In this document: positions 10,433 to 34,292 of the stretch, piece by piece
How the letters are laid out: each line of letters starts with the position of its first letter
Numbering within the stretch: the first letter of the stretch is position 1
Origin: Chloroflexota bacterium
GTDB taxonomy: Bacteria > Chloroflexota > Dormibacteria > CF-121
Assembly (NCBI GenBank): GCA_005882045.1
Contig: VBHO01000147.1
Span: 1 to 43,912 of the forward strand
Reading direction: 5' to 3'
DNA: 43,912 bases
The notes under the pieces: model-generated
Told to the model about the DNA's origin: nothing
Databases searched by the model: none
Seen by the model: only the letters and a program-made list of their open reading frames with translations
Program-made: the position numbers and the translations under genes

Positions 10433-12745
10433 CTAACTCAAATTGACGGTTTGTCCGAGACGACCTTCCACCGGTGGCCCGTCGGGCCGGTGCACGTGAA
10501 CGCTAGCCACGTAGTCGAGCGGGCCTCCCTCAAGTCGGAGATGCTCGCGCTCGACCTTCATCGTGAAATGGAGTTGGCGGTGGTCGTCGGCCAGCTCGAT
10601 TTCGGTCGTGCCCTCGCTACCTGGGTAGACCTCGAAGCTCAGCGGGTCCCATGCCCGCTCGTTCGCATATCGGAGCTCTGGACCCATGGGCAGGACGGCG
10701 CCGGCGCGCACGAACAGCGGCAGCGTTTCCAATTCGGCGTCGTACGTTATCCAGCGTCCGCCGACGAGTCGCTGATCCGTCCAGAAGTCGTACCAACCGC
10801 CGGGCGGCAGATAAATATTGCGCCGGCCTCGTGGCTCGAACATGGGGGCGACCAGCAGATCCGGGCCGAGTAGGTATTCGTCGTCGATGCGCCAGGTCGT
10901 CGGATCTGACGGATAGTCGTAGACCAGCGGCCGCGCCAGTGGTACGCCTTCCGTCACGCGACGCGCCGCTGCATATAAGTAAGGAAGCAATCGGTAGCGA
11001 AGCTGGGCGTAACGGCGGAAGATCGACAGCGCGGGCTCGCCGTAGGCCCAGGGCTCCCGCGGCGCGGTGTGGCCATGGGCGCGCGCGTGGGAGAACAGCA
11101 GCCCCATCTGCGACCAGCGCACGTACAGTTCGGGGCTCGGGGGATCGATCAGGGTCGGAATTCCAAAGAAGCCGCCCATATCGAAGCTGGCAAAGGCCGC
11201 GCCCGACAGGATCCAGCTCAGCGCACCGCGCAAGCTGGCCGCCATGTCCTCGAACGTGCATCCCGGGTCGCCGCCCCAGTGCACCGGGTAGCGCTGCGAC
11301 CCGGCGTAGCCGGAGCGGCCCCAGATGAGGCCGTAACCGTGCACGTCCTTGATGGTTTCGAACACGGCTCGCTGGTAGAGCAGGGGATACAGATTGTGCA
11401 ACTGCTCGGCGGGGGTGCCGTCGTGGGGCACGGCATCGTCGGGCATGTCCTCGGCAAAGTCGGTCTTGATCACGGCCACGCCCATCTCGAGCAACTTGCG
11501 GTTCTTGGCTTTGAACCACTCGACCGCCTCGGGGTTGGTGAAGTCGACCGCGGCACTCGGTTTGGCGAAGCCATGGACGAGGGCCAGGCCCCCACCCTGC
11601 CCTCCCCCTGAGGGGGAGGGTGAAATATCCTTGGTCTTCATCAGGAACCCTTTGCGCTCGCCCTCGGCGCACATCTCGGAGTCGAGCGGTACGTACGGGC
11701 TTTCCCACAGCGACAGCCTGAAGCCCAGCGCCTTGAGCTCCGCGATCATGCCTTTGGGATCGGGGAAGGCCGACTCGTCCCATTCGAGGTCGCCATGGTG
11801 CCCCTCGTGGTAACGCATCCAGTAGGGGTCGATGTGAATGACATCGCACGGGACTTTTTCCTCTCGCATGCGGCGGGCGACCGTCATCACCTCGTCGCGG
11901 TTGCGATAGCCCCAGCGGCTGATCCAGAACCCAAACGACCAGTCGGGGGGCACCGCCGGCTGACCGGTCAGGCGATGGTAGGCCCGCATGATCGGCGCAA
12001 TGCCATCGCCCACGATCAAGTACGCGCGCAGATGATCGGCGCGGGCGGTGGCCTGCCACGCCGTCGCCGATGCCTGACCGAGGTCGTAGTAGAGAGGCCC
12101 GGTCATGTCGAAGAAGACGCCATAGCCTTCAGAGCTGACCAGCAGTGGCACGTTCTTGTAGGCGCGGTCGCTGCGGACGCCAAAGGCGTCGACCGTCCAC
12201 GATGCGAACGCCTGGCCGCGGCGATTGAGGGCCCCAAAATGCTCGCCGAGGCCGAAGAGCGCCTCGTCGGGCTTTAGCCCGGCGGTTAACCAGCGCAAGC
12301 CACGGGCATGGCCGGTCGGAAAATGGTGAAAGTCGCCGCGAATGTCGCGATCGTTTGGCTCGTCGGCAAAGCGCACCGTTCCCGTCGCGTCCTTGAGACG
12401 TAACCGGAAAGGGGTGCGATCGACCTCGACGGTCAGCGCCGAGGTGGAGATCGACCAACCCTGGTCCTTTTGAGCCATCTTGCAATCCGAGGCCGACGGC
12501 GCACGGTCGACCAGAAGCCGGGATGGCTTGCTCGCCCCGGCGCCGAAATGAAGGCGCACGATGTCGGGCGCTACCGGTCGAATCTCGATTGGGACTCGCG
12601 AGCCGCGGTCGTCCTCCGCGGTCAGCTCGATGCGATTGTCACGGGCGCGAACGCTGCGGACAAGTGCGATGGATCGGGGATCGCGAGCAAGAAAATCACC
12701 GGCCGGGCGCGCCGGTTGGGCCGCTACCAGCCGCGCTGGATCCAC
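10433..12745 (-). CDS. Glycoside hydrolase family 31 (alpha-xylosidase/alpha-glucosidase, YicI-like)
   Basis: About 770 residues. N-terminal beta-sandwich, then a TIM barrel with WSFGFWISRWGYRNRDEV, CDVIHIDPYWM, the nucleophile segment VIKTDFAEDMP (Asp429), GRSGYAGSQRYPVHWGGD (the last Asp is the likely acid/base), and SFDMGGFFG. These match the YicI branch of GH31, exo-acting retaining enzymes on alpha-xylosides or alpha-glucosides. No signal peptide, so cytosolic. The best start is GTG 12745, overlapping the MBL gene by 22 bases; no ATG lies in the right place, so the start is uncertain. A dispersed repeat (11589..11622) adds about 11 residues (SPSPSGGGQGGG) at 375-386, in a loop before ALVHGFAKPSAAVDFTNPEA, shortly before the nucleophile in sequence. 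Confidence 0.85.
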   Translation of the reverse strand: MDPARLVAAQPARPAGDFLARDPRSIALVRSVRARDNRIELTAEDDRGSRVPIEIRPVAPDIVRLHFGAGASKPSRLLVDRAPSASDCKMAQKDQGWSISTSALTVEVDRTPFRLRLKDATGTVRFADEPNDRDIRGDFHHFPTGHARGLRWLTAGLKPDEALFGLGEHFGALNRRGQAFASWTVDAFGVRSDRAYKNVPLLVSSEGYGVFFDMTGPLYYDLGQASATAWQATARADHLRAYLIVGDGIAPIMRAYHRLTGQPAVPPDWSFGFWISRWGYRNRDEVMTVARRMREEKVPCDVIHIDPYWMRYHEGHHGDLEWDESAFPDPKGMIAELKALGFRLSLWESPYVPLDSEMCAEGERKGFLMKTKDISPSPSGGGQGGGLALVHGFAKPSAAVDFTNPEAVEWFKAKNRKLLEMGVAVIKTDFAEDMPDDAVPHDGTPAEQLHNLYPLLYQRAVFETIKDVHGYGLIWGRSGYAGSQRYPVHWGGDPGCTFEDMAASLRGALSWILSGAAFASFDMGGFFGIPTLIDPPSPELYVRWSQMGLLFSHARAHGHTAPREPWAYGEPALSIFRRYAQLRYRLLPYLYAAARRVTEGVPLARPLVYDYPSDPTTWRIDDEYLLGPDLLVAPMFEPRGRRNIYLPPGGWYDFWTDQRLVGGRWITYDAELETLPLFVRAGAVLPMGPELRYANERAWDPLSFEVYPGSEGTTEIELADDHRQLHFTMKVEREHLRLEGGPLDYVASVHVHRPDGPPVEGRLGQTVNLS
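11589..11622 (-). repeat. Dispersed GC-rich palindromic repeat, copy B (inside GH31 gene)
   Basis: Plus strand: CCCCCACCCTGCCCTCCCCC, then TGAGGGGGAGGGTGA. Compared with copies C and D the centre is TGA instead of GCGAGC and one base differs in the left arm. The gene reads it in frame as ISPSPSGGGQGGGLA. Confidence 0.8.
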
Positions 12746-13311: not shown

Positions 13312-13317
13312 AGTTTA
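13312..13317 (-). promoter_or_regulatory. Putative leaderless -10 element of the MBL-GH31 operon
   Basis: TAAACT on the minus strand (13317..13312), six bases, then GTG 13305. The matching -35 position (about 13335-13340) falls inside repeat copy C, so the repeat may shape this promoter. Confidence 0.5.
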
Positions 13318-13329
13318 TCGAGCCCCATG

Positions 13330-13392
13330 CCCCCACTCTGACCCTCCCCCGCGAGCGGGGGAGGGGAATCGTGCCGCAAGCGGGGGAGGGTG
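13330..13392. repeat. Dispersed repeat, copy C, with a second partial half, in a divergent promoter region
   Basis: A full copy (13330..13366; arms CCTCCCCC and GGGGGAGGGG around GCGAGC) is followed by a second partial half, CGCAAGCGGGGGAGGGTGA (about 13374-13392). It fills most of the gap between the divergent MBL gene (GTG 13305) and endonuclease IV gene (ATG 13404). Confidence 0.75.
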
Positions 13393-13403
13393 AATTTACG
13401 AGA

Positions 13404-14264
13404 ATGAGTGACGTGGCCCAGGAACGACGAATCGGCATGCACATGCGCACCGGCCGCGGCCTCGATAAGGCCGCCGAGATGATCAAAGCGCTGCAGCTGC
13501 AGGCCGTCCAGATCTTTACCGGCAATCCGAGCGCCTGGCGCTCGGCGTCAGTCGACCCCAAGGCCACCGCGTTGTTCAAAGAGGCGCTCGCAGAGATGGA
13601 GGTCCGCCCGGCACTGTCACACGCCATGTACCTGATCAACTTGGCCTCGCCCAACCCCAATTTTCAAAAGAAATCGCGGGAGGCGCTGAAGGCGGAACTA
13701 GAGCGCGCCGAGGCGTACGGCTTGCAGTACGTCGTGACGCACGTCGGCAGCCACATGGGCGACGGCGCCCAGGCCGGCATCGATCGCGTGGTTTCCCAGC
13801 TGGACCTGGTGCTGGGCACGGCCGCTGGCTCGGCCACCTGTTTGCTCGAAACCTCGGCGGGGGGCGGCGCTTACGTTGGTGCCAAGTTCGATGACCTGGC
13901 GCAGATCCTTTCCCGGTTGCCGCAACACGCGGAGCGGCTGGGCGTCTGCTTCGATACCGCCCACGCCTACGCGTCGGGCTACGACGTGGCCGGTGCGGAG
14001 GGCATGACCACGACGCTGGAGCAGCTCACCGCCATCATTCCGGCAGAGCGGATCCGCGCCTGCCACTGCAACGACACCACCGTGACCCTGGGCGGGAAGG
14101 CGGACCGGCACGTCAACATCGGCCAGGGCAATGTGGGCCTCGAGGGCTTCAGAGCATTGCTTCACTTCGATCCCCTGGCGCACTGCGCCTTCGTGCTGGA
14201 GACGCCGGGCGAGGAGATGCTCGAAGGACTCGAGAACCTGAACACGCTCCGGTCGCTGCGATGA
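13404..14264 (+). CDS. nfo: Endonuclease IV (AP endonuclease, DNA repair)
   Basis: 286 residues. Endonuclease IV cleaves 5' to abasic sites using three zinc ions in a TIM barrel. Family motifs are all present: RIGMHMRTGRGLDKAAEM, LQAVQIFTGNPSAW, the metal-binding histidines in LSHAMYLINLAS and VVTHVGSHMGDG, LLETSAGGGAYVG, VCFDTAHAYASGYD, and CHCNDTTVTLGGKADRHVNI. I chose ATG 13404; sequence upstream is repeat copy C and the frame reads as repeat-derived. The start has no SD. The HAD gene overlaps its stop by four bases (ATGA). Confidence 0.9.
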   Translation: MSDVAQERRIGMHMRTGRGLDKAAEMIKALQLQAVQIFTGNPSAWRSASVDPKATALFKEALAEMEVRPALSHAMYLINLASPNPNFQKKSREALKAELERAEAYGLQYVVTHVGSHMGDGAQAGIDRVVSQLDLVLGTAAGSATCLLETSAGGGAYVGAKFDDLAQILSRLPQHAERLGVCFDTAHAYASGYDVAGAEGMTTTLEQLTAIIPAERIRACHCNDTTVTLGGKADRHVNIGQGNVGLEGFRALLHFDPLAHCAFVLETPGEEMLEGLENLNTLRSLR

Positions 14265-15049
14265 GCGCGCCGATCGAGGCGGTCCTGTTGGACTACGGTC
14301 ACACGCTGATCTATTTCGACGAGCGGCCGCACTCGGCGCTGCTCGGCGCCTACGAAAACGTCAACCGGTTGCTGGCGGACACGTTGGAGCGTGAGGTGCC
14401 GGTCGCGCAGGTCATGATTGAGAAGGTCTCGCAACGAGTCGACGCGGAGATTCAGCGTGACTATGCCGCCGGCCGGGAGGAGGAAGTCGAGATCGCCGCC
14501 ATCTATGACGCCGCCTTGCGTGACATCGGGCTGGAGCTGGAACCGGCGCTGATCGAGCGAGTCATGGAACTCGAACAGGAGGGCTGGCTGAAGAGCGTGC
14601 ACGTCGGCCCCGACGTGGTTTCCACGCTGGAGGAGCTCCGGCGCCGGGGTCTCCGCCTTGGCATCGTCTCCAACGCGGCTTACCTGCCCCGCCTGATGAA
14701 CGCGCAGCTGGCCGCGCTGGGCCTGGCGAAGTATTTCAGCGGCGTCTCGTTCTCCTCCGAGGTCGGCGTGCGCAAACCGCACCCCGCGATCTACCGGGAC
14801 GCGCTCGCCAAGGTCGGCGTCGAGCCCTCCAGAACGCTCTTCGTGGGCGACCGTGTCCGGGAGGATGTGCAGGGACCAAAATCGCTGGGCATGCGCGCGG
14901 TCCTGACCCGGGAATGGAGGCAGGAAGACGACCCGGGCGCCGCAGATTTTGTCATCGCACGGCTGGGTGACTTACTCACGGTCCTCAACGGTCTCGCGGC
15001 CGGGCGACATGCGGCCGATACCTATAATGAGGTGACGTCGCGCGAGTAG
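14261..15049 (+). CDS. HAD-superfamily hydrolase
   Basis: 262 residues, start ATG overlapping the nfo stop (ATGA), so translation is coupled. Motif I is AVLLDYGHTLIYFDE, motif II IVSNAAYLPR, motif III Lys in VGVRKPHPAIYRDA, motif IV LFVGDRVREDVQG. Motif I reads DYGHT: the usual second Asp (DxDxT), the general acid/base of phosphatases, is Gly. That is known in some HAD branches, such as dehalogenase-like enzymes, so phosphatase activity is not assured. A helical cap domain lies between motifs I and II. The C-terminal tail is disordered. Confidence 0.8.
   Translation: MSAPIEAVLLDYGHTLIYFDERPHSALLGAYENVNRLLADTLEREVPVAQVMIEKVSQRVDAEIQRDYAAGREEEVEIAAIYDAALRDIGLELEPALIERVMELEQEGWLKSVHVGPDVVSTLEELRRRGLRLGIVSNAAYLPRLMNAQLAALGLAKYFSGVSFSSEVGVRKPHPAIYRDALAKVGVEPSRTLFVGDRVREDVQGPKSLGMRAVLTREWRQEDDPGAADFVIARLGDLLTVLNGLAAGRHAADTYNEVTSRE
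15023..15028 (+). promoter_or_regulatory. Putative -10 (TATAAT) for the small HTH gene
   Basis: Perfect TATAAT inside the 3' end of the HAD gene, about 55 bases before the GTG at 15084. No good -35 was seen. A transcript from here would carry the SD site GGAGGT upstream of the HTH gene. Confidence 0.45.
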
Positions 15050-15083: not shown

Positions 15084-15380
15084 GTGGACTTCCGCGAGTA
15101 TCTGAAGCGCAAGTGTCGCGAGCAGAACATTTCTCTGCACCGGCTCGCGGTCCGCTGCGACCTGAACCAGATTTACTTCTACCAGGCCGTCAACAAGAAC
15201 AAGGAAAACCCGCCCCCGTGGGTGCTCCGCCGGGCGGCCCCGCATCTCGGAGTGACCTACGTCGAGCTGTTGATCGCGGCCGGGCACCTGACGGAGGACG
15301 ACCTGCGGGAATATACTGGCCGCCCGCCGGCGCCGCCGTCGAAAGAGCCGGAACGGGCTCGGGAGAAGGTCTCGGTCTAA
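15084..15380 (+). CDS. Small XRE-like helix-turn-helix protein
   Basis: 98 residues from GTG 15084, with GGAGGT about nine bases upstream. Residues about 1-65 form a helix-turn-helix of the Xre/lambda-repressor type (EYLKRKCREQNISLHRLAVR, LNQIYFYQAVNKNK, WVLRRAAPHLGVTYVELLIA); the tail is Pro/Arg-rich. Probably a DNA-binding regulator, with no ligand domain, but its target is unknown. The 3' end overlaps the convergent LppX-like gene by four bases (shared CTAA). Confidence 0.7.
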   Translation: MDFREYLKRKCREQNISLHRLAVRCDLNQIYFYQAVNKNKENPPPWVLRRAAPHLGVTYVELLIAAGHLTEDDLREYTGRPPAPPSKEPERAREKVSV

Positions 15381-16129
15381 GCGGAGGTCGTGTCGCCGCC
15401 CGCCACGAAGCTCGAGAAGTGGTAGGTGACTGACCAGGTGAATTGGGTGGTACTCATATCGATCTTCATCTGGTGCATGTAGCGGTCACTGGCGGAGATC
15501 CACACCTCGACCTGGATGCCGGCGTTGGTCAGAGCGGCTTCGTCTGCCGGGGTGAGGCCGCTCGACGGATCGGCTTTGAGCTGTTCGACGTATTTGCCCG
15601 GGTCGACGGTCAGCGAGAAATGGTGGACGTCGATGTTGTCCATCGTGATGTCGCCCAGATCATCGGAGGCGCGGAAGGCGTGGGCGAACTCCAGGTTCGC
15701 GATCGGGTCCATCCCGGGCGCGATCTGACTTTTCGAGTTGCCGGTGACGTCCTTCCACGCCGGGCCCTGTGAGGGGATCCTGATGTATTCGTGGCCGTTC
15801 TCGATGCGCTCATCCACTTCCACGATCACATCGCCGTCCGCCGATGGGACGTCCATCTGGAGCGTGAGCGTCTCTTTGTGTGGATAAATCAGGTCACCTG
15901 AGCCGGTGATTTTGACGCCGGCCAAGCCGTTGAGCACCAGGTTGCCGGCCAGCGACAGGTGGACGCTCTTCAGGCCCTGCATCGCGTCACCACTTTTGCT
16001 GATGAAGGGACCGGCATCGAGGGGCGGCGGGGCCGACTGCTGTCCCGGGATCATCCCGTTGATGGCGCCACTCTTCCACACCAGTAGGCAGGAAACGATG
16101 GCGACGGCAATCGTGATCAGCCGTCCCAT
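15377..16129 (-). CDS. LppX/LprG-like lipoprotein or membrane-anchored protein
   Basis: 250 residues. The N-terminus MGRLITIAVAIVSCLLVWKS has an IVSC lipobox-like site (Cys14), though the hydrophobic stretch continues past it, so a plain membrane anchor is also possible. The rest resembles the LppX_LprAFG family of lipid-carrier lipoproteins: GDAMQGLKSVHLSLAGNLVL, VKITGSGDLIYPH, LTLQMDVPSADGDVIVEVDE, EYIRIPSQGPAWKDV, DMSTTQFTWSVTYHFSSF. Such proteins carry lipids or glycolipids at the outer face of the membrane in Actinobacteria. The start is ATG 16129 without a clear SD. The gap 16130-16337 holds an 8-base inverted repeat (GATCCATC/GATGGATC) and no gene. Confidence 0.7.
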   Translation of the reverse strand: MGRLITIAVAIVSCLLVWKSGAINGMIPGQQSAPPPLDAGPFISKSGDAMQGLKSVHLSLAGNLVLNGLAGVKITGSGDLIYPHKETLTLQMDVPSADGDVIVEVDERIENGHEYIRIPSQGPAWKDVTGNSKSQIAPGMDPIANLEFAHAFRASDDLGDITMDNIDVHHFSLTVDPGKYVEQLKADPSSGLTPADEAALTNAGIQVEVWISASDRYMHQMKIDMSTTQFTWSVTYHFSSFVAGGDTTSA

Positions 16130-16337: not shown

Positions 16338-18038
16338 GTGCAGCGGGTGGTCATGCATGTCGACCTCGATGCCTTTTATGCCTCGGTCGAGCAGCTGCGC
16401 CGCCCGGAGCTGCGCGGCAAGCCGGTCATCGTGGGCGGCGCCGGGACGCCCGGCGAGCGGGGCGTGGTGGCTGCGGCCTCCTACGAAGCCCGTCCCTTCG
16501 GGGTCCGCTCGGCGATGCCACTCAGCCGGGCGCGTCGCCTCTGCCCCAACGGGATATTCGTTCCCTGTGACTTCCACGCCTACCGCGAAGCCTCGAAGTC
16601 GGTCTTTGCCATCCTCGACCGCTACTCCCCCATCATCGAGCCGATCTCGCTCGACGAGGCCTACCTCGACCTCACCGGACAGGAGGCGCTGATGGGGCCG
16701 CCCGCCGGGGTTGCCACCCGGCTCCGCGACGAGGTCAAGACGCGCAGCGGTCTCGACCTCAGCATTGGCGTCGCGAGCTGCAAGCTGGTTGCCAAGGTCG
16801 CCTCTGAGCTGCGCAAGCCGCGGGGCCTGGTGGTCGTTCGGCCCGGTGAGGAGGCCTCCTTCCTCGCCCCGCTACCGCTTTCCAGGCTGCCCGGCTGCGG
16901 GCCGGCCACCGCGGTCAAACTGGAGCGGGTCGGGGTTCGCACCATCGGCGACCTCGCGGCCCTGCCCGACCCGCTGCTCGGCGAGCTATTCGGCCAGTAC
17001 GGGCGCGCCCTCGGCGCCCACGCTCGAGGCCTCGACGCGAGTCCTGTCACGCCGCCGGGCGACCCGAAGAGCATCTCGCGCGAGGTCACCTTCGACCGCG
17101 ACGTGAGCGACGCCGGCAAGGTGCGAGAAACCGCACTCGGTCTCTTGCAGGACGTCGGTCAAAGTTTGCGCGCACATCGATTGTCGGCGCGCACCGTCGT
17201 GCTCAAGATTCGCTATCAGCCCTTCGACACCCAGTCGCGGCAAGCCACCCTCCCCTACCCTACCGATCGGGATGACCAGCTGGCTGGGGCCTTACGTCAT
17301 CTGCTCGAGACCCAGGTCGCCCCCAGCCGCCCCGTCAGACTGATCGGCGCCGGCGTGAGCAATCTCGAAGCCTGCGCGACACAGCTGAGCCTGCTGGAGA
17401 GCCGGTCGCCGCGGCTGGCCATGCTCGACGCGCAACTCGACCAGCTGCGCGGGCGCTTTGGCGAGCACGTCATCAGTCGCGGCACGGCCGCGCCAACCCA
17501 TCAGAAAGACGTCAGACGTGATGACCTGGGACGACGGGTGAAGGCCGCCAAGCCCAAGACCGCGAAGCTGACCCACATCGGACCCAGTGGCGAAGCCCGC
17601 ATGGTCGACATTTCCGCCAAACCGGTCAGCAACCGCGAGGCACGGGCGCGTGGGTCGGTAAAGATGAGCCAGGCGGCGCTCGAGGCGATCCTGCGCGGCA
17701 ACCTTCCCAAGGGCGAGGTGATCGGCACGGCACGCATCGCCGGCATCCAGGCGGCGAAACGGACCAGCGAGCTGATCCCCATGTGCCATCCGCTGGCGCT
17801 GACCATGGTCGATGTCGTGTGCCGGCCCGACCGGGCTCTACCCGGCATCCAGATCGAGTCGGTGGTCCGTTGCGTGGCGCGAACGGGCGCAGAGATGGAA
17901 GCGCTGACGGCGGTGGCGGCGGCGGCCCTCACCATCGTCGATATGGCGAAAAGCGTCGACCGCTGGATGACGATCGAGGATATCGAGCTGCTGGCGAAAC
18001 GCGGGGGTAAGAGCGGCGACCTGCGTCGTCCGGACTAG
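16338..18038 (+). CDS. DNA polymerase IV - MoaC fusion ORF
   Basis: 566 codons with no stop between two unrelated enzymes. Residues about 1-385 are a complete Y-family polymerase (DinB): [31 protein letters not shown] catalytic acids, [16 protein letters not shown], a helix-hairpin-helix region and the little finger ending [14 protein letters not shown] Lys/Ala-rich linker (about 390-405) leads to MoaC (about 407-560), cyclic pyranopterin monophosphate synthase of molybdenum-cofactor synthesis, with [30 protein letters not shown] and [12 protein letters not shown], retaining the catalytic His, Asp and Lys. GTG 16338 is taken as start; GTG 16347 and ATG 16353 are alternatives. An internal GTG (17538) could start MoaC separately but has only a weak SD. 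The gene ends by a shared stop with the convergent gene. Confidence 0.85.
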
Positions 18039-19288
18039 CGGCCGGCCTTGATCGCCTTCATCGCCGCGTCGTAGGCCTTCTGCATCGGGCCGAAGGTCTT
18101 GGTTTCGTAGTCAGCGGGCAGGGTCTCCTCGGGACTCGACATCGCCTTCAAGGCCGCGTTAGTGGCATCGGTGTATTTCTTGATGCCCGCGGGATCCTTG
18201 GCCTGGATCGCCTGGATCAGGCTCTCGGTGTTGGTCAGGACATCGTTGAAGCTGCTCACCTGTTTGGCGATTTGCGGCGCAAGCCCGGGTGCCCCGGACA
18301 GTGACATCGCCAGCTCGATTTTCTGCTGAGCATCCGGATAGGGCGCGCCGGCTCCCACCAGGTCATGCTTGGACAATGCCGCGCTCATCTTCGCGTAGTC
18401 GATCAACGCATCGAGATAGGGCTGAATCACCTTAGCCTCGTTGACCGCCGCGGTCATCGCCTTGTCGGCCTGAGTGAGCCCGGCCAGTGCCGCGGCGAGG
18501 CGCTCCCGTTCGCTGCTGATTTGCGCGCTCTTCGTGGGCGCGCCCCATTTGATGAACGACAGGCTCTGGTCAACGCCCTTGAGCGTTGCCTCGTCGGATT
18601 GCACCAGGGTGAGGCCATCGTTGAAGGAGACCGCCAGCTTGGCGAACTGGGCCTTCAGCGCCGCTGGATCGCTGGAACTGTTCGACGAGCCGATCAGCTG
18701 TGCGAACACGGCGTCCACCTTGGCCTGGTGCGAGGCGGCGGTCGTGAGCGATTTATCACCGGCCGAAATCTGGGCGGTGGCGACGGCCGGCATGATGCCG
18801 TAGACGAGCACCAGGAGCACCACCAGGCCGGCAGCCACGGTGACGATCCGGCGCTGGTAACGCAGCAGCTGGGGTGGAACGGCGACCGGAAGGGTGAGGG
18901 TCTGGCCGAAGATTCGAAGGGTCGTGCCGGAAGCGGCCGGCGGCCCCTGGCCTGGCCCGTAGCCAGGGTACGGCTGGCCGTAGCCGGGCTGCTGGGGGTA
19001 ACCGGGTGTCTGCCCGTAACCCGGCGGGGCGTAGGAGGGATACTGGCCCTCCTGACCCGGCTGGCCGGGATAGCCGCCCTGTTGTCCCGGATATTGTGGC
19101 TGCTGCGGGTAATTCGGCTGGCCGTAGGGCTGGCCTTGCTGCCCTGGCTGGCCGGGAGCGTAGCCGGGCGGGGCGTAGCTGGCCTGCGGCGGGGGCAGCT
19201 GGTTGCGGCAGTTGGCGCAGGTCTGGGCGCCGGGCTGGTTCCAGGTTATGCCGCAGTACGGACACGGAGCTGATTGGTAAGCCTGCAT
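18035..19288 (-). CDS. Zinc-ribbon, Pro/Gly/Gln/Tyr-rich, membrane-anchored helical protein
   Basis: 417 residues in four blocks. Residues about 8-32: zinc ribbon ([16 protein letters not shown]). About 33-125: low-complexity repeats rich in P, G, Q and Y ([17 protein letters not shown]), likely disordered. About 145-175: one membrane helix ([20 protein letters not shown]). About 176-417: an Ala-rich, helical extracellular domain ([10 protein letters not shown]-like start, [19 protein letters not shown]). The cytosolic part thus joins zinc ribbon to disordered tail, as in other Gram-positive zinc-ribbon membrane proteins. The neighbour (19355..20230) has a related outer domain without the N-terminal blocks. 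Function unknown; a scaffold or stress-envelope role is conceivable. The 3' end overlaps dinB-moaC by four bases (CTAG). Confidence 0.65.
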
Positions 19289-20288: not shown

Positions 20289-21170
20289 TCAGCGAAGCAG
20301 CTGACCCAGTTCCTCCGCGTTACGGACGGCGTAGTCCGAGTAGCAGTTGTTGAAGATCGCGTGAACCTCGATGGCGCTCTTCGCCATGTCCTGGAGCTTG
20401 GGCGCCCACGCCTTCAGCTCGCTTGGCTGATAGAGGTAGCGAAACTTTTCCGCGGTGCTGATGCCTTTCTTCTCCCAGTTCTCTGCGTTGTGGCCGTGAA
20501 AGCGCACCATGCCGAGCGGCGCCGTGGTGGCGACTACCGGCGGCACGCTGGACGCGAAGCCTTGGGGCTCGTCAACCACTACGTAGGTGTAGTGGTGGTC
20601 CTTCAGAAACTCGACGACGCGCTCACGCCGGGACTCCTTCATCCACAGCGCCTGGCGAAACTCGATCGCGATCCCGAAGTCCGGCAACCACTCGCGCAGG
20701 TCTTCCATGAAGCGATAGGCCGACGGCGAGGGAAGAAACCACTTGGGGAATTGGAAGACGATCGCACCCAGCTTGCCCGCATCCTGCAGCGGTTGCATCC
20801 CCTCGCGGAAGCGATCCCACACACTTTCCTTCTCTTTGGGCCCCAGATCCTTGAAGTAGAGGTTGGTCTTCGAATCGGACACCTTTTCCCGCAGGTCTTT
20901 CGGCAAGCGGGCGACCGGGGTGGGATGCTGGGTCAGCAGCGCGTACGCCTTGGCGTTGAAGGTGAACTCTTTCGATGTGCGCGCGACCCACAGCTCGGCG
21001 GTCTTCTCATTGGGGATCGCATAGAAGGTACTGTCGACCTCGACCACAGGAAACTTCGAGGCGTAATAACGGAGCCGCTCCTCCGCCGTCGTCGCGTCCG
21101 GGGGATACCACCCGCTCTTGATCAGAGTCGGCTCCGTCCAGGAAGAAATCCCGACCTTGATGCGTCCCAT
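20289..21170 (-). CDS. DUF72 family protein (YecE-like)
   Basis: 293 residues. DUF72 proteins adopt a TIM barrel and have no established biochemical function. Family motifs are visible: MGRIKVGISSWTEP with WYPPDATTAEERLRYYASKF, VEVDSTFYAIP, FTFNAKAYALLTQHP, LGAIVFQFPKWF, IEFRQALW, YVVVDEPQGF, MVRFHGHNAENW and HAIFNNCYSDYAVRNAEEL. The ATG start (21170) overlaps the moaB TGA stop by one base (TGATG), so the pair is translationally coupled and one operon with moaB, but no metabolic link is known. Confidence 0.85.
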   Translation of the reverse strand: MGRIKVGISSWTEPTLIKSGWYPPDATTAEERLRYYASKFPVVEVDSTFYAIPNEKTAELWVARTSKEFTFNAKAYALLTQHPTPVARLPKDLREKVSDSKTNLYFKDLGPKEKESVWDRFREGMQPLQDAGKLGAIVFQFPKWFLPSPSAYRFMEDLREWLPDFGIAIEFRQALWMKESRRERVVEFLKDHHYTYVVVDEPQGFASSVPPVVATTAPLGMVRFHGHNAENWEKKGISTAEKFRYLYQPSELKAWAPKLQDMAKSAIEVHAIFNNCYSDYAVRNAEELGQLLR

Positions 21171-21676
21171 CAGCTGGGGCGGTGGGCGGCGGGAGCGTCG
21201 CTGACCTCGCCGCGCAGCGTGCGCAGGCCGTGTGGCAGCGCTTCCATGACGGCCTCGAGGCTGTCGACTACCCCGCGCGGGCTGCCAGGGAGGGCCAGCA
21301 GCAAGGTCCGTCCAATGACGCCGGCCAGCGAGCGCGACAGCATCGCGTGCGGGGTTTTGCGCAGACCCGCGGCTCGCATCGCTTCGGCGATACCCGGCAC
21401 CGGGTAGTCGAGCAACGGCTCAACCGCCTGTGGCGTGACATCGCGCGGGCCCAGCCCTGTACCACCGGTCAAAACGATCAGGTCGGGGTCGGCGACCCGC
21501 AACCACTCGCGGACCTGACGCTGGATGTCGGCCAGCTCATCACTGACGATGGCCCGCCCGACCACCTCCGCGGGGATGCGGGCCAGCGCCTCGCTGATCT
21601 TTTCGCCACTTTCGTCGACGCGTTCACCGCGGGCGCCCTTGGTGCTCACGGTCAGGACGCAGGCACGAAAGCTCAT
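21170..21676 (-). CDS. moaB: Molybdenum cofactor biosynthesis protein MoaB/MogA
   Basis: 168 residues with the MoaB/Mog signatures LIVLTGGTGLGPRDVTP (MPT-binding, TGGTG) and LLLALPGSPRGVVDSLEAV (PGSP). It adenylylates molybdopterin before metal insertion. The leaderless start ATG 21676 follows TAGACT by six bases. It supports a functional molybdenum cofactor pathway together with MoaC (16338) and the formate dehydrogenase (35131). Overlaps DUF72. Confidence 0.9.
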   Translation of the reverse strand: MSFRACVLTVSTKGARGERVDESGEKISEALARIPAEVVGRAIVSDELADIQRQVREWLRVADPDLIVLTGGTGLGPRDVTPQAVEPLLDYPVPGIAEAMRAAGLRKTPHAMLSRSLAGVIGRTLLLALPGSPRGVVDSLEAVMEALPHGLRTLRGEVSDAPAAHRPS

Positions 21677-21718: not shown

Positions 21719-22168
21719 CTAGCCTTCGGCGCGGTAGGCGGCGTGCGCCGCGATCGTGCGGCAGAAATCCGTCACGGCGCCGCCGACTTCCATCAGGTCG
21801 TGATAGCCGAAGGGGACGCAGTGGTCGAAGGGGGGAAAGCGAACCACCGCCGAGGCGGGCGGAAGGTCGGCGTCGTACAGGGCCAGCACCGGACGCCCCC
21901 GGCCGAGCAGCCAGCCGGCTTCGAACCCGACCCCGGTGCTGCGCCCGGTCATCTCCATACAGCCGGCGTCCGCCTCCAGCAGCTCGCGGTGCATCATCTC
22001 GGCGATCAACTCAGGCCGGTCGAAGCCGGGCCGGTAATCGGGATCCGCCACCCGCTCGGCGAGGATCCCGGCTCCATACTCCCGCAGCGCCCGATGGGCC
22101 AGCTGGATGGCCTCGAGGCTGCGCGGACCTAGTTCGCCACTGACCGCCCGACCGAGGTAGACCTTCAC
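21719..22168 (-). CDS. Nucleoside 2-deoxyribosyltransferase-like protein
   Basis: 149 residues from GTG 22168. It has the compact Rossmann-like fold of nucleoside 2-deoxyribosyltransferases and DNPH1-like N-glycosidases: MKVYLGRAVSGELG at the N-terminus, an Asp/Glu region (LLEADAGCMEMTG) and the hallmark GVGFEAGWLLGRGRPVLALYD, whose Glu is the catalytic residue in the family. Function could be base exchange or hydrolysis of deoxynucleosides/5'-monophosphates; substrate cannot be read. The GTG start overlaps the stop of the 46-residue gene by four bases (GTGA). Confidence 0.75.
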   Translation of the reverse strand: MKVYLGRAVSGELGPRSLEAIQLAHRALREYGAGILAERVADPDYRPGFDRPELIAEMMHRELLEADAGCMEMTGRSTGVGFEAGWLLGRGRPVLALYDADLPPASAVVRFPPFDHCVPFGYHDLMEVGGAVTDFCRTIAAHAAYRAEG

Positions 22169-23929: not shown

Positions 23930-23975
23930 AAGTCAGTGACTTAAAACGCGCCGATGCGCTTACGCGCGAAAGCGC
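23930..23975. terminator. Palindrome and hairpin between convergent ends (23885 and 23995)
   Basis: AAGTCAGTGACTT (23930..23942) is a perfect palindrome around one base; 14 bases further a 6-bp stem GCGCTT / AAGCGC with an 8-base loop (23956..23975). They lie between convergent genes and may act as terminators, or the palindrome may be an operator. No U-run. Confidence 0.35.
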
Positions 23976-23994
23976 GGCTCGCCCTGCGGGCTCG

Positions 23995-25974
23995 CTAAGC
24001 CGCCTTGTAGCGGCTGAGTTCTGTTTCGAGCTGCTGGATGCGGAAGAGCAGTTGGTTGATATAGCGCTCGCGGCCCATCAGGCGGGTGTTCATCGAGGCG
24101 GTCGCCTGCAGCTGTTCCTTGACCCGGTCCCAACGCCGGACGTTCTGGATCGCGACCGACGCCTGCTCCGCAAAGGCCTTCAGCTGCTCGAGGTCGCCAG
24201 CGGGGATCGGATCCAGGTTGTCGCGATAGACATTGAGCACGCCGCTCACCTCGTCTGAGACCTCGACCTCGGAGCGACTGAGCAGCGCGCCGTCATCGGT
24301 CGCATCCTGTTCGCGCAGCGAGCCGCATAGCACCGAGGCGATCATCGAGAGACCCGCAGTCTCGACGGTCTCGACCAGGTTCGGCGGCAGCATTTCCCGC
24401 ATCAGCGAGACCCAGGGCTTGCCGGTGCGCATCACGTCACCGGCGGCCGGCGCACCCCAGGCGATCCGTTGGCTGATGATGACCTCCGCCACACCTTGCG
24501 AGCCCGCGACTTCCAGCTCCAGGCTCTTCGGATTGCGCAGGGCGAGCAACGCGGCGTTGCCACCAATCAGTTCTTTGGCGCTGGAGAGCACGAACTCGAC
24601 CAGCTGCTTGCTGTCATTGGCGACCGACAGCTCCCGGGCCTTTCGAACGAGGGTCGTCAGGCGGTCCTCCCGCTGCTTGAGCAGGTCGACCAGACGGGCG
24701 TTGATCAAGGCATTGGCGGCGTCGGTCGCGACACGTGCCAGGTTGCGCAGGTCGTGCTCCGTGAACGGATCACTCGCCGCGCGCGCCAGCGTCAGCACCC
24801 CCAAGCCTTCTTTGTCGGCGAGCAGCGGGACGGCGATGAAGGATCGGGGCTGATGCTTCGGGTCAGACGCTTTGAAACGCGAGTCGGACCGGCTGTCGCG
24901 GACCAGCACCGGTTCGCGATGCGACAACGCCCAGCCGGCGATGCCTTCGCCGACTTTGAAGCGTGACATCTCGCTGATCGCGATCGGGCTGTTGCGCGCC
25001 GCCTCGACCTTGAGCTCTTCCTGGAGGTGATCCACCAGCGCAAGCGTCCCGCGCTCGAAGCGCACCAGCTCGGACGCGGCATCGAGGACGCCGTCGAGGA
25101 CGGTGCGCCATTCCACGGAGGACGACAGCCGCTGGGCCGCCTTGATGGTGGCCTGCGAGCTTTTCAAGGCTTGCTCGGCCTCCGCCAGCTGGGCGCGCGC
25201 CACGTCCCAGCGTGCCGAAAGCGCGTCGAACTCCAGTTGAACGCGGTGGTGAGCGGCCTGGTTTTCGAGCGCACGCTCGAGGTCAGCCCGCATTCCGTCG
25301 CTGGCTCGTTTGGCGGCTTCGACTTCGGCGCGTAGGCGATTGGAACGCGCTTCGACGGTTTCGTGCTCCACCTTGAGCGCCGCGACCTCGGCGTCGCGGG
25401 CCGCGATCGTCGCGTGGGCGCTGGCGAGCTCGCCCGCGAGACGGTCACGCTCGACGCTGGCCGTGGCTTGGCTGCGAGTTGCTTCCGACAGGCGGGCGGT
25501 CAGGTCCTGCCGCTCGCGATCGAGGGTCTCATAGGCGGTCTGGAGGGTGGCGTGCTTGGCGGCGACGTGCTCGAGCTCCTGGACCCGCCGGGCATGTTGC
25601 TCGGCGAGCGTCCGTTGTTCGGCGATTTCAGCCTCGAGCGCGGTCGCCCGGCCCCGATGCCGGCCGAGTTCCTGCTCGGTCTGCTCGAGCAACTTCTGGT
25701 TCCGCTCCAGCACCCGACCCTGTTGACGATGGGCCTTGAGCAACTCGGCGAGGTCCAGCCGCAAGCGTGCCTGGGTGGTGCCGGCCTCGTCCAGCTGGGC
25801 TTCGAGGGAGCGGTCTGAGGTCTGGGCGTCGGAAGACCGCCTGGAGGAGGTCGATGGTGTTGGGGCGCTCGACGGGATCGCGCGCGGCGCGGGCGTTTTG
25901 TCCGCCGCTGAGTGCGCTGGAGCCGCCGGTTTATCGGCGGGTTTCTGCCGACGAGAGAAGGACCACTTTGACAT
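23995..25974 (-). CDS. Coiled-coil protein with two C-terminal GAF domains
   Basis: 659 residues. Residues 1-60 disordered (Ala/Pro/Ser-rich), about 60-285 a long coiled coil with heptads (LELLEQTEQELGRHRGRATA, ERQDLTARLSEATRSQ), about 290-435 a GAF domain (FKVGEGIAGWALSHREPVLV, FIAVPLLADKEGLGVLTLAR), about 450-620 a second, less typical GAF domain, ending in a coil. No histidine kinase or output domain, so it is a sensor/scaffold only. It begins four bases after the TadA stop, so they are co-transcribed. Its GAF is of the same type as in the histidine kinase at 28270, suggesting shared signals. Confidence 0.8.
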   Translation of the reverse strand: MSKWSFSRRQKPADKPAAPAHSAADKTPAPRAIPSSAPTPSTSSRRSSDAQTSDRSLEAQLDEAGTTQARLRLDLAELLKAHRQQGRVLERNQKLLEQTEQELGRHRGRATALEAEIAEQRTLAEQHARRVQELEHVAAKHATLQTAYETLDRERQDLTARLSEATRSQATASVERDRLAGELASAHATIAARDAEVAALKVEHETVEARSNRLRAEVEAAKRASDGMRADLERALENQAAHHRVQLEFDALSARWDVARAQLAEAEQALKSSQATIKAAQRLSSSVEWRTVLDGVLDAASELVRFERGTLALVDHLQEELKVEAARNSPIAISEMSRFKVGEGIAGWALSHREPVLVRDSRSDSRFKASDPKHQPRSFIAVPLLADKEGLGVLTLARAASDPFTEHDLRNLARVATDAANALINARLVDLLKQREDRLTTLVRKARELSVANDSKQLVEFVLSSAKELIGGNAALLALRNPKSLELEVAGSQGVAEVIISQRIAWGAPAAGDVMRTGKPWVSLMREMLPPNLVETVETAGLSMIASVLCGSLREQDATDDGALLSRSEVEVSDEVSGVLNVYRDNLDPIPAGDLEQLKAFAEQASVAIQNVRRWDRVKEQLQATASMNTRLMGRERYINQLLFRIQQLETELSRYKAA

Positions 25975-33264: not shown

Positions 33265-34292
33265 CCGCCGAGATTTTCTCCGGCCTTCGACAGGTCGAAG
33301 GATGCCGACTGGTCTTCTGACGAGTCCTTGCCGGCCTCGAAGATGCTCCAGCGTAGTGCTAGGGATCCGATCATGCTGCACATGGCCGCAGCCGTCGACA
33401 ACGATCGCACCGTGCGACTATGCCCGCGACGCGCGAAGCCATGAAGCAGGAGCGGTAGCAACCCTCCTGCGAAGACGGCGCCCAACCAGAATGGCGGGGC
33501 GAATCGACCGGTCGTCAGCGGTCGAGCGGCCTTTCCGGACTGCACGAGGTAGCCAGTGAGAATGGCCATCTCGCCGAGCGACGCCGCCGATTCGACGGTG
33601 GCAAGCCGGTGGAGGGTCGCCTCGGGCGCGCCGCGGCGCGCGGCCTGGAGGGTGACCGCGGCCGAGCCGCTCGACAACGCCGAAGCCATGAAGACGCCGC
33701 CCAGCAACCTGCTCTTCGCCCACAACGGGACATTGGTGGCGCCCAAAAGCACACCGCTATAGCCCGCGAGCGTCAAGCCGAGAAGACAGCCGGTCAGCTC
33801 GGTCAGGCGACGCGGCACGAGCCCGACCAGCGCGCGCAGGGGCCCGCGAAGCAGTCCCGTATCGGCCGCATGCAACCCGGCTCTCGCGAATGCAAGTGGC
33901 GTGAACCCGGTCAGCGTCCATGCGCCGAGATTCATCGGCGAGAGGGGCTTGAAGATACGCAGCATGTGATGAAAGCGCTCCGGTCGACCGAGGTCGCCGA
34001 TTAGCAGCGGCGCACAGGGGAGGAGGGCGGCCGCCGCGACGTAGAAGCCGTCGGCAGCGATTCGGCGGTCGTCGGCGGATCCAAACGTTTGCGCCAGCGA
34101 CGCCGTGACGAAGGCGCCGGCACCCAGCCCACCGAGCCAGAAGTAGGCGGGCACCTCCCAGGTCCATACCGGACGGCGCACGACCGGGTAGTCGTAATAG
34201 CCCGCAGTGCCCGCACTGCCCCCACCCTGACCCTCCCCCGCGAGCGGGGGAGGGGAATTTCCGTGCGGGAGAGAGAAATTGCCCCCGGTCAT
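33246..34292 (-). CDS. nrfD: NrfD/PsrC-like membrane subunit of formate dehydrogenase
   Basis: 348 residues from ATG 34292 (ATGA overlap with fdhB). A multi-spanning quinone-interacting anchor of the NrfD/PsrC family with about 8-9 hydrophobic helices (WEVPAYFWLGGLGAGAFVTA, LPCAPLLIGDLGRPERFHHM, GLTLAGYSGVLLGATNVPLW, LLGGVFMASALSSGSAAVTL, FWLGAVFAGGLLPLLLHGFA). It would pass electrons between the iron-sulphur subunit and the quinone pool. Repeat copy D (34219..34258) encodes residues about 12-25 (NSPPPLAGEGQGGGSAG), just before the first helix. The open frame upstream of 34292 is antisense/overlapping fdhB and was excluded. Confidence 0.85.
   Translation of the reverse strand: MTGGNFSLPHGNSPPPLAGEGQGGGSAGTAGYYDYPVVRRPVWTWEVPAYFWLGGLGAGAFVTASLAQTFGSADDRRIAADGFYVAAAALLPCAPLLIGDLGRPERFHHMLRIFKPLSPMNLGAWTLTGFTPLAFARAGLHAADTGLLRGPLRALVGLVPRRLTELTGCLLGLTLAGYSGVLLGATNVPLWAKSRLLGGVFMASALSSGSAAVTLQAARRGAPEATLHRLATVESAASLGEMAILTGYLVQSGKAARPLTTGRFAPPFWLGAVFAGGLLPLLLHGFARRGHSRTVRSLSTAAAMCSMIGSLALRWSIFEAGKDSSEDQSASFDLSKAGENLGGCGSSI
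34219..34258 (-). repeat. Dispersed GC-rich palindromic repeat, copy D (inside nrfD)
   Basis: Plus strand CCCCCACCCTGACCCTCCCC, then CGCGAGCGGGGGAGGGGAAT. Almost identical to copy C. The tail GTGCGGGAGAGAGA (34263..34276) resembles the degenerate second half that follows copy C, suggesting a longer element. Confidence 0.8.

Follow-up and report, generated by a model that had tools for sequence, protein, structure and literature searches.

Likely merger of dinB and moaC into one reading frame by a small indel at a gene overlap in a Chloroflexota draft genome

The window, meaning the whole 43,912-nucleotide stretch of DNA that we analyzed (contig VBHO01000147.1 of assembly GCA_005882045.1, a soil bacterium of the Chloroflexota, Dormibacteria, CF-121), holds a single open frame of 566 codons that begins with GTG and contains no internal stop. 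Pfam placed the IMS domain at residues 8 to 157 (1.8e-50) and IMS_C at residues 243 to 352 (3.7e-27), and the translated frame also matched NCBIfam models of DNA polymerase IV. The polymerase motifs HVDLDAF (residues 7 to 13) and SLDEAYLD (residues 104 to 111) are kept, and this part of the frame has the IMS and IMS_C domains with the catalytic Asp and Asp-Glu motifs that mark a DNA polymerase IV. A clamp-binding-like motif, QLSLL, lies at residues 349 to 353; as in DinB generally, its putative role is clamp binding.

The remainder of the frame is MoaC. Residues 422 to 557 cover positions 1 to 136 of the 136-position Pfam profile (3.2e-50), and the MoaC models PRK09364 and TIGR00581 both exceeded their cut-offs. 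In a gap-free alignment with E. coli MoaC (1ekr), residues K51, H77, E112, E114, D128, and K131, which we take to matter for catalysis, correspond to K458, H484, E519, E521, D535, and K538 of the frame, as expected of a full-length MoaC domain. These Pfam, NCBIfam, and E. coli MoaC comparisons bear out an earlier note on this DNA, which had described a complete DinB and a complete MoaC in one 566-codon frame with active-site residues retained. As both domains are complete and conserved, a chance open frame was excluded. The features of the locus are collected in Table 1.

Table 1. Features of the dinB-moaC locus (positions are those of the window)
Feature	Position	Strand	Evidence
Merged dinB-moaC frame, GTG start	16338..18038	+	Pfam, NCBIfam; relatives start at the same position (GTG or ATG)
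dinB part, Y-family DNA polymerase IV, residues 1-400	16338..17537	+	Pfam IMS/IMS_C; PDB 7yll over residues 1-384
QLSLL, clamp-binding-like, near DinB C terminus	17382..17396	+	Sequence
Conserved DinB tail QKDVRRDDL, last conserved residues upstream of junction	17502..17528	+	Alignment, 14 sequences
Junction, net -2 (or +1) bases versus relatives; frame bypasses former dinB stop	17529..17541	+	Alignments
GTGA, stop/start overlap signature still present; its GTG was the ancestral start of moaC, TGA now off the dinB frame	17538..17541	+	NTGA in 13/14 relatives
moaC part (cyclic pyranopterin monophosphate synthase), residues 401-566, with active-site residues retained	17538..18038	+	Pfam, NCBIfam, alignment to E. 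coli MoaC

Downstream, the moaC stop overlaps that of a convergent gene, 18035-19288 (-), within CTAG (18035-18038). The product of this gene, which had no Pfam match, carries a zinc-ribbon-like CPYC/CANC stretch at its N terminus and, after it, a region rich in Pro, Gly, and Gln. A molybdopterin-binding gene of the MoaB/Mog type (PF00994) lies at 21170-21676 (-), 3.1 kb from moaC, so the neighborhood holds more than one molybdenum-cofactor gene. Short C/G-rich hairpins (CCCTCCCCC..GGGGGAGGG) occur at 13317-13393, 11576-11630, and 34217-34258, with tens of similar dispersed copies in the genome of the window and in all genomes of the genus; they resemble dispersed palindromic repeats or terminators. 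Another dispersed element, some 50 bases long (23948-24000), has copies with 87 to 100% identity in many genomes of the genus, and its fold stability was examined and was nothing unusual.

A whole-protein scan of a collection of species genomes returned loci matching both halves only in a group of Chloroflexi metagenome-assembled genomes. Fourteen genomes of the same family carry both genes (G001, G003, G005, and G007 to G017), and in every one of them dinB and moaC are adjacent yet separate and lie in different frames, the dinB frame ending after about 401 to 405 codons. This is the outcome that the earlier note had named as counting against a true fusion when it proposed a search for the same domain pair in relatives. 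In all but one of the 14, the dinB stop (TGA) and the moaC start overlap within four bases, GTGA, ATGA, or TTGA; in two of the TTGA cases, an ATG two bases downstream is the likelier moaC start. The exception, G016, has candidate moaC starts on either side of the dinB stop, each a few bases away. The two nearest genomes, G002 and G006, are about 90% identical in the parts that they hold, and their sequence ends before the junction; in G004, a close match to the query was not found.

The 11 genomes measured from a second family of the class have dinB and moaC on one strand, separated by 1.2 to 1.6 kb, which indicates that the neighborhood is wider than the overlap. At one such locus (L159, 2310-5541 [-]), a 366-codon open frame sits between the two genes and overlaps moaC; it encodes a membrane-anchor-like stretch and had no Pfam match. 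The DinB tail, QKDxRRDDxD, which lies beyond the usual clamp motif, is kept in all members of the first family, down to a DinB of 69% identity.

Comparing the window with its close relatives at the nucleotide level locates the change. The relatives read GAC CTG GAT GCG CTG CGG TGA A across the boundary, and the window reads GAC CTG GGA CGA CGG GTG AAG. The window junction is 2 bases shorter, that is, one codon fewer and one base more, with several substitutions flanking it, and the DinB tail is intact right up to it. Because dinB arrives at the retained GTGA shifted by one base, the TGA is skipped and the frame continues into moaC, reading GTG AAG and entering the moaC frame at the old start codon. 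A net indel of only -2 (equivalently +1) relative to the relatives is needed to join the frames. The window copy thus combines what is looked for in an indel merger of overlapping neighbors: genes that lie in different frames in relatives, a short stop/start overlap, and a net indel. This exact junction was absent from viral contigs and from every other locus fetched.

We then asked how widespread a single DinB-MoaC frame is. Searches at levels from genus to phylum covered 454 other genomes, and one frame spanning both domains was found in none of them. These are distinct genomes with that of the window left out, combining 109 others of the class with a draw of 400 from the phylum; in the phylum draw, matches with E up to 1e-60 were covered in full and weaker ones in part. 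A conserved DinB-MoaC fusion family would be expected to show the pair in one frame in independent genomes; it was rejected on these class- and phylum-wide searches together with the 14 relatives with separate genes. The earlier note had left two options, a real bifunctional protein or adjacent genes that had lost the stop between them; the second agrees with the relatives, and the first gains no support from the 454 other genomes.

Both halves of the merged frame bear the marks of purifying selection. DinB of the window is 81 to 87% identical to that of genus relatives with a complete gene, and dN/dS against genus relatives was 0.07 to 0.12 for DinB and 0.09 to 0.23 for MoaC, although most of the divergence behind these values may predate the merge. 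With active sites kept and dN/dS low, decay of either MoaC or DinB was rejected. The genome has no MoaC other than the one in the merged frame and also carries moaA, which implies that this MoaC is probably needed. The C-terminal domain of that moaA was recovered as two pieces at contig ends (G000 contigs C40 and C196), probably one gene split by assembly. A second, distant DinB-like polymerase that most genomes of the genus carry was not found in the genome of the window.

Taken together, we think it probable that a recent, lineage-specific small indel merged two neighboring, overlapping genes, a near-neutral accident without joint function. The ancestral state would have been that shown throughout the family, with dinB and moaC as same-strand neighbors in different frames and nearly always a four-base NTGA stop/start overlap. 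Such an overlap would let a ribosome finishing dinB restart on moaC, and translation of the two genes was probably coupled before the merge. As the alignment shows, a net change of -2 or +1 in the last dinB codons puts the TGA off frame and joins dinB to the old moaC GTG; we infer that this was a true mutation. Since both halves look functional, one long protein may be made in this lineage, a 566-residue chain in which the tail of DinB and the N-terminal tail of MoaC would form the connector and each domain would keep its ordinary job; the two domains most likely work independently. Without the in-frame TGA, termination-coupled restart would be lost, and MoaC would have to be supplied by the fusion or by internal starts. 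Free MoaC could arise by internal initiation at GTG 17538 or ATG 17601; the Shine-Dalgarno-like energy before GTG 17538 is -3.9, within the random range (mean, -3.2; standard deviation, 2.6), as it is for most relatives.

A less probable but tenable explanation is a consensus or assembly error in the draft genome, in which case the organism really has two overlapping genes like its relatives. The merged frame is known from one genome, a fragmented draft of 269 contigs, and one net indel suffices to produce it. According to the authors of a survey of prokaryotic frame transitions, singletons in general can be either indel mutations or sequencing errors, and those near gene 3' ends are likelier to be indel mutations (PMC3711429). 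The neighboring genes (13371-14264, 14261-15049, 15377-16129, 18035-19288, 20289-21170, 21170-21676, and 21719-22168) match most relatives in one frame over their length, so the stretch is not generally frame-broken. Moreover, only about 20 bases at the gene boundary, in the last dinB codons, are affected and neither protein is harmed, which would seldom be expected of a random error within 1.7 kb. The flanking bases have diverged too, which makes the junction a diverged tail rather than an identical one spoiled at a single base. We therefore favor a true indel over an error.

A selected bifunctional DinB-MoaC enzyme, coupling molybdenum-cofactor synthesis to the DNA-damage response, is very improbable. 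Both domains are complete with their active sites, the genes are neighbors across one family and on one strand in a second, and the N-terminal tail of MoaC in the window exceeds that of most relatives by about five residues. However, the fusion occurs in no other genome searched, the tail of DinB and the N-terminal tail of MoaC account for the linker, and the literature searched yielded no paper that links DinB with MoaC. The suggestion that a cofactor enzyme had been placed in the DNA-damage response is accordingly not upheld: the joined frame is present in one genome only, and nothing indicates joint function. Equally doubtful is a recently fixed fusion tying the dosage and location of MoaC to an error-prone polymerase, which, if true, would newly pair a cofactor enzyme with translesion synthesis.

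A merger by indel carries some wider lessons. A domain pairing that is striking in one genome dissolved once relatives were compared at the nucleotide level, and at a short stop/start overlap a single indel can fuse two genes harmlessly. When a gene fusion in a single draft genome is used to infer a functional link, an overlap-merging indel should be looked for. If the merge is real, it offers a modest natural experiment on the tolerance of hexameric MoaC for an N-terminal polymerase.

Compared with known DNA polymerase IV/DinB proteins (PF00817 and PF11799; PDB 7yll and 4ir1), the window copy is likewise complete and has both the catalytic motifs and a clamp-binding-like one, but its stop codon is off frame and the chain runs on into MoaC. 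Compared with MoaC (PF01967 and TIGR00581; PDB 1ekr and 4pyd), it shares the full-length domain, the active-site residues, and the gap-free alignment to the E. coli protein but has a DNA polymerase in frame upstream. NCBIfam includes MoaC/MoaB and MoaC/MobA models. A survey of archaeal fusions reported MoaC repeatedly fused with itself, MoaE, and MoaB, possibly through frameshifts in conserved syntenic blocks (PMC11237513). The merge in the window would be the same kind of event, with MoaC joined to a neighboring gene and a frameshift origin suggested, but with a partner from outside the pathway and in one genome only.
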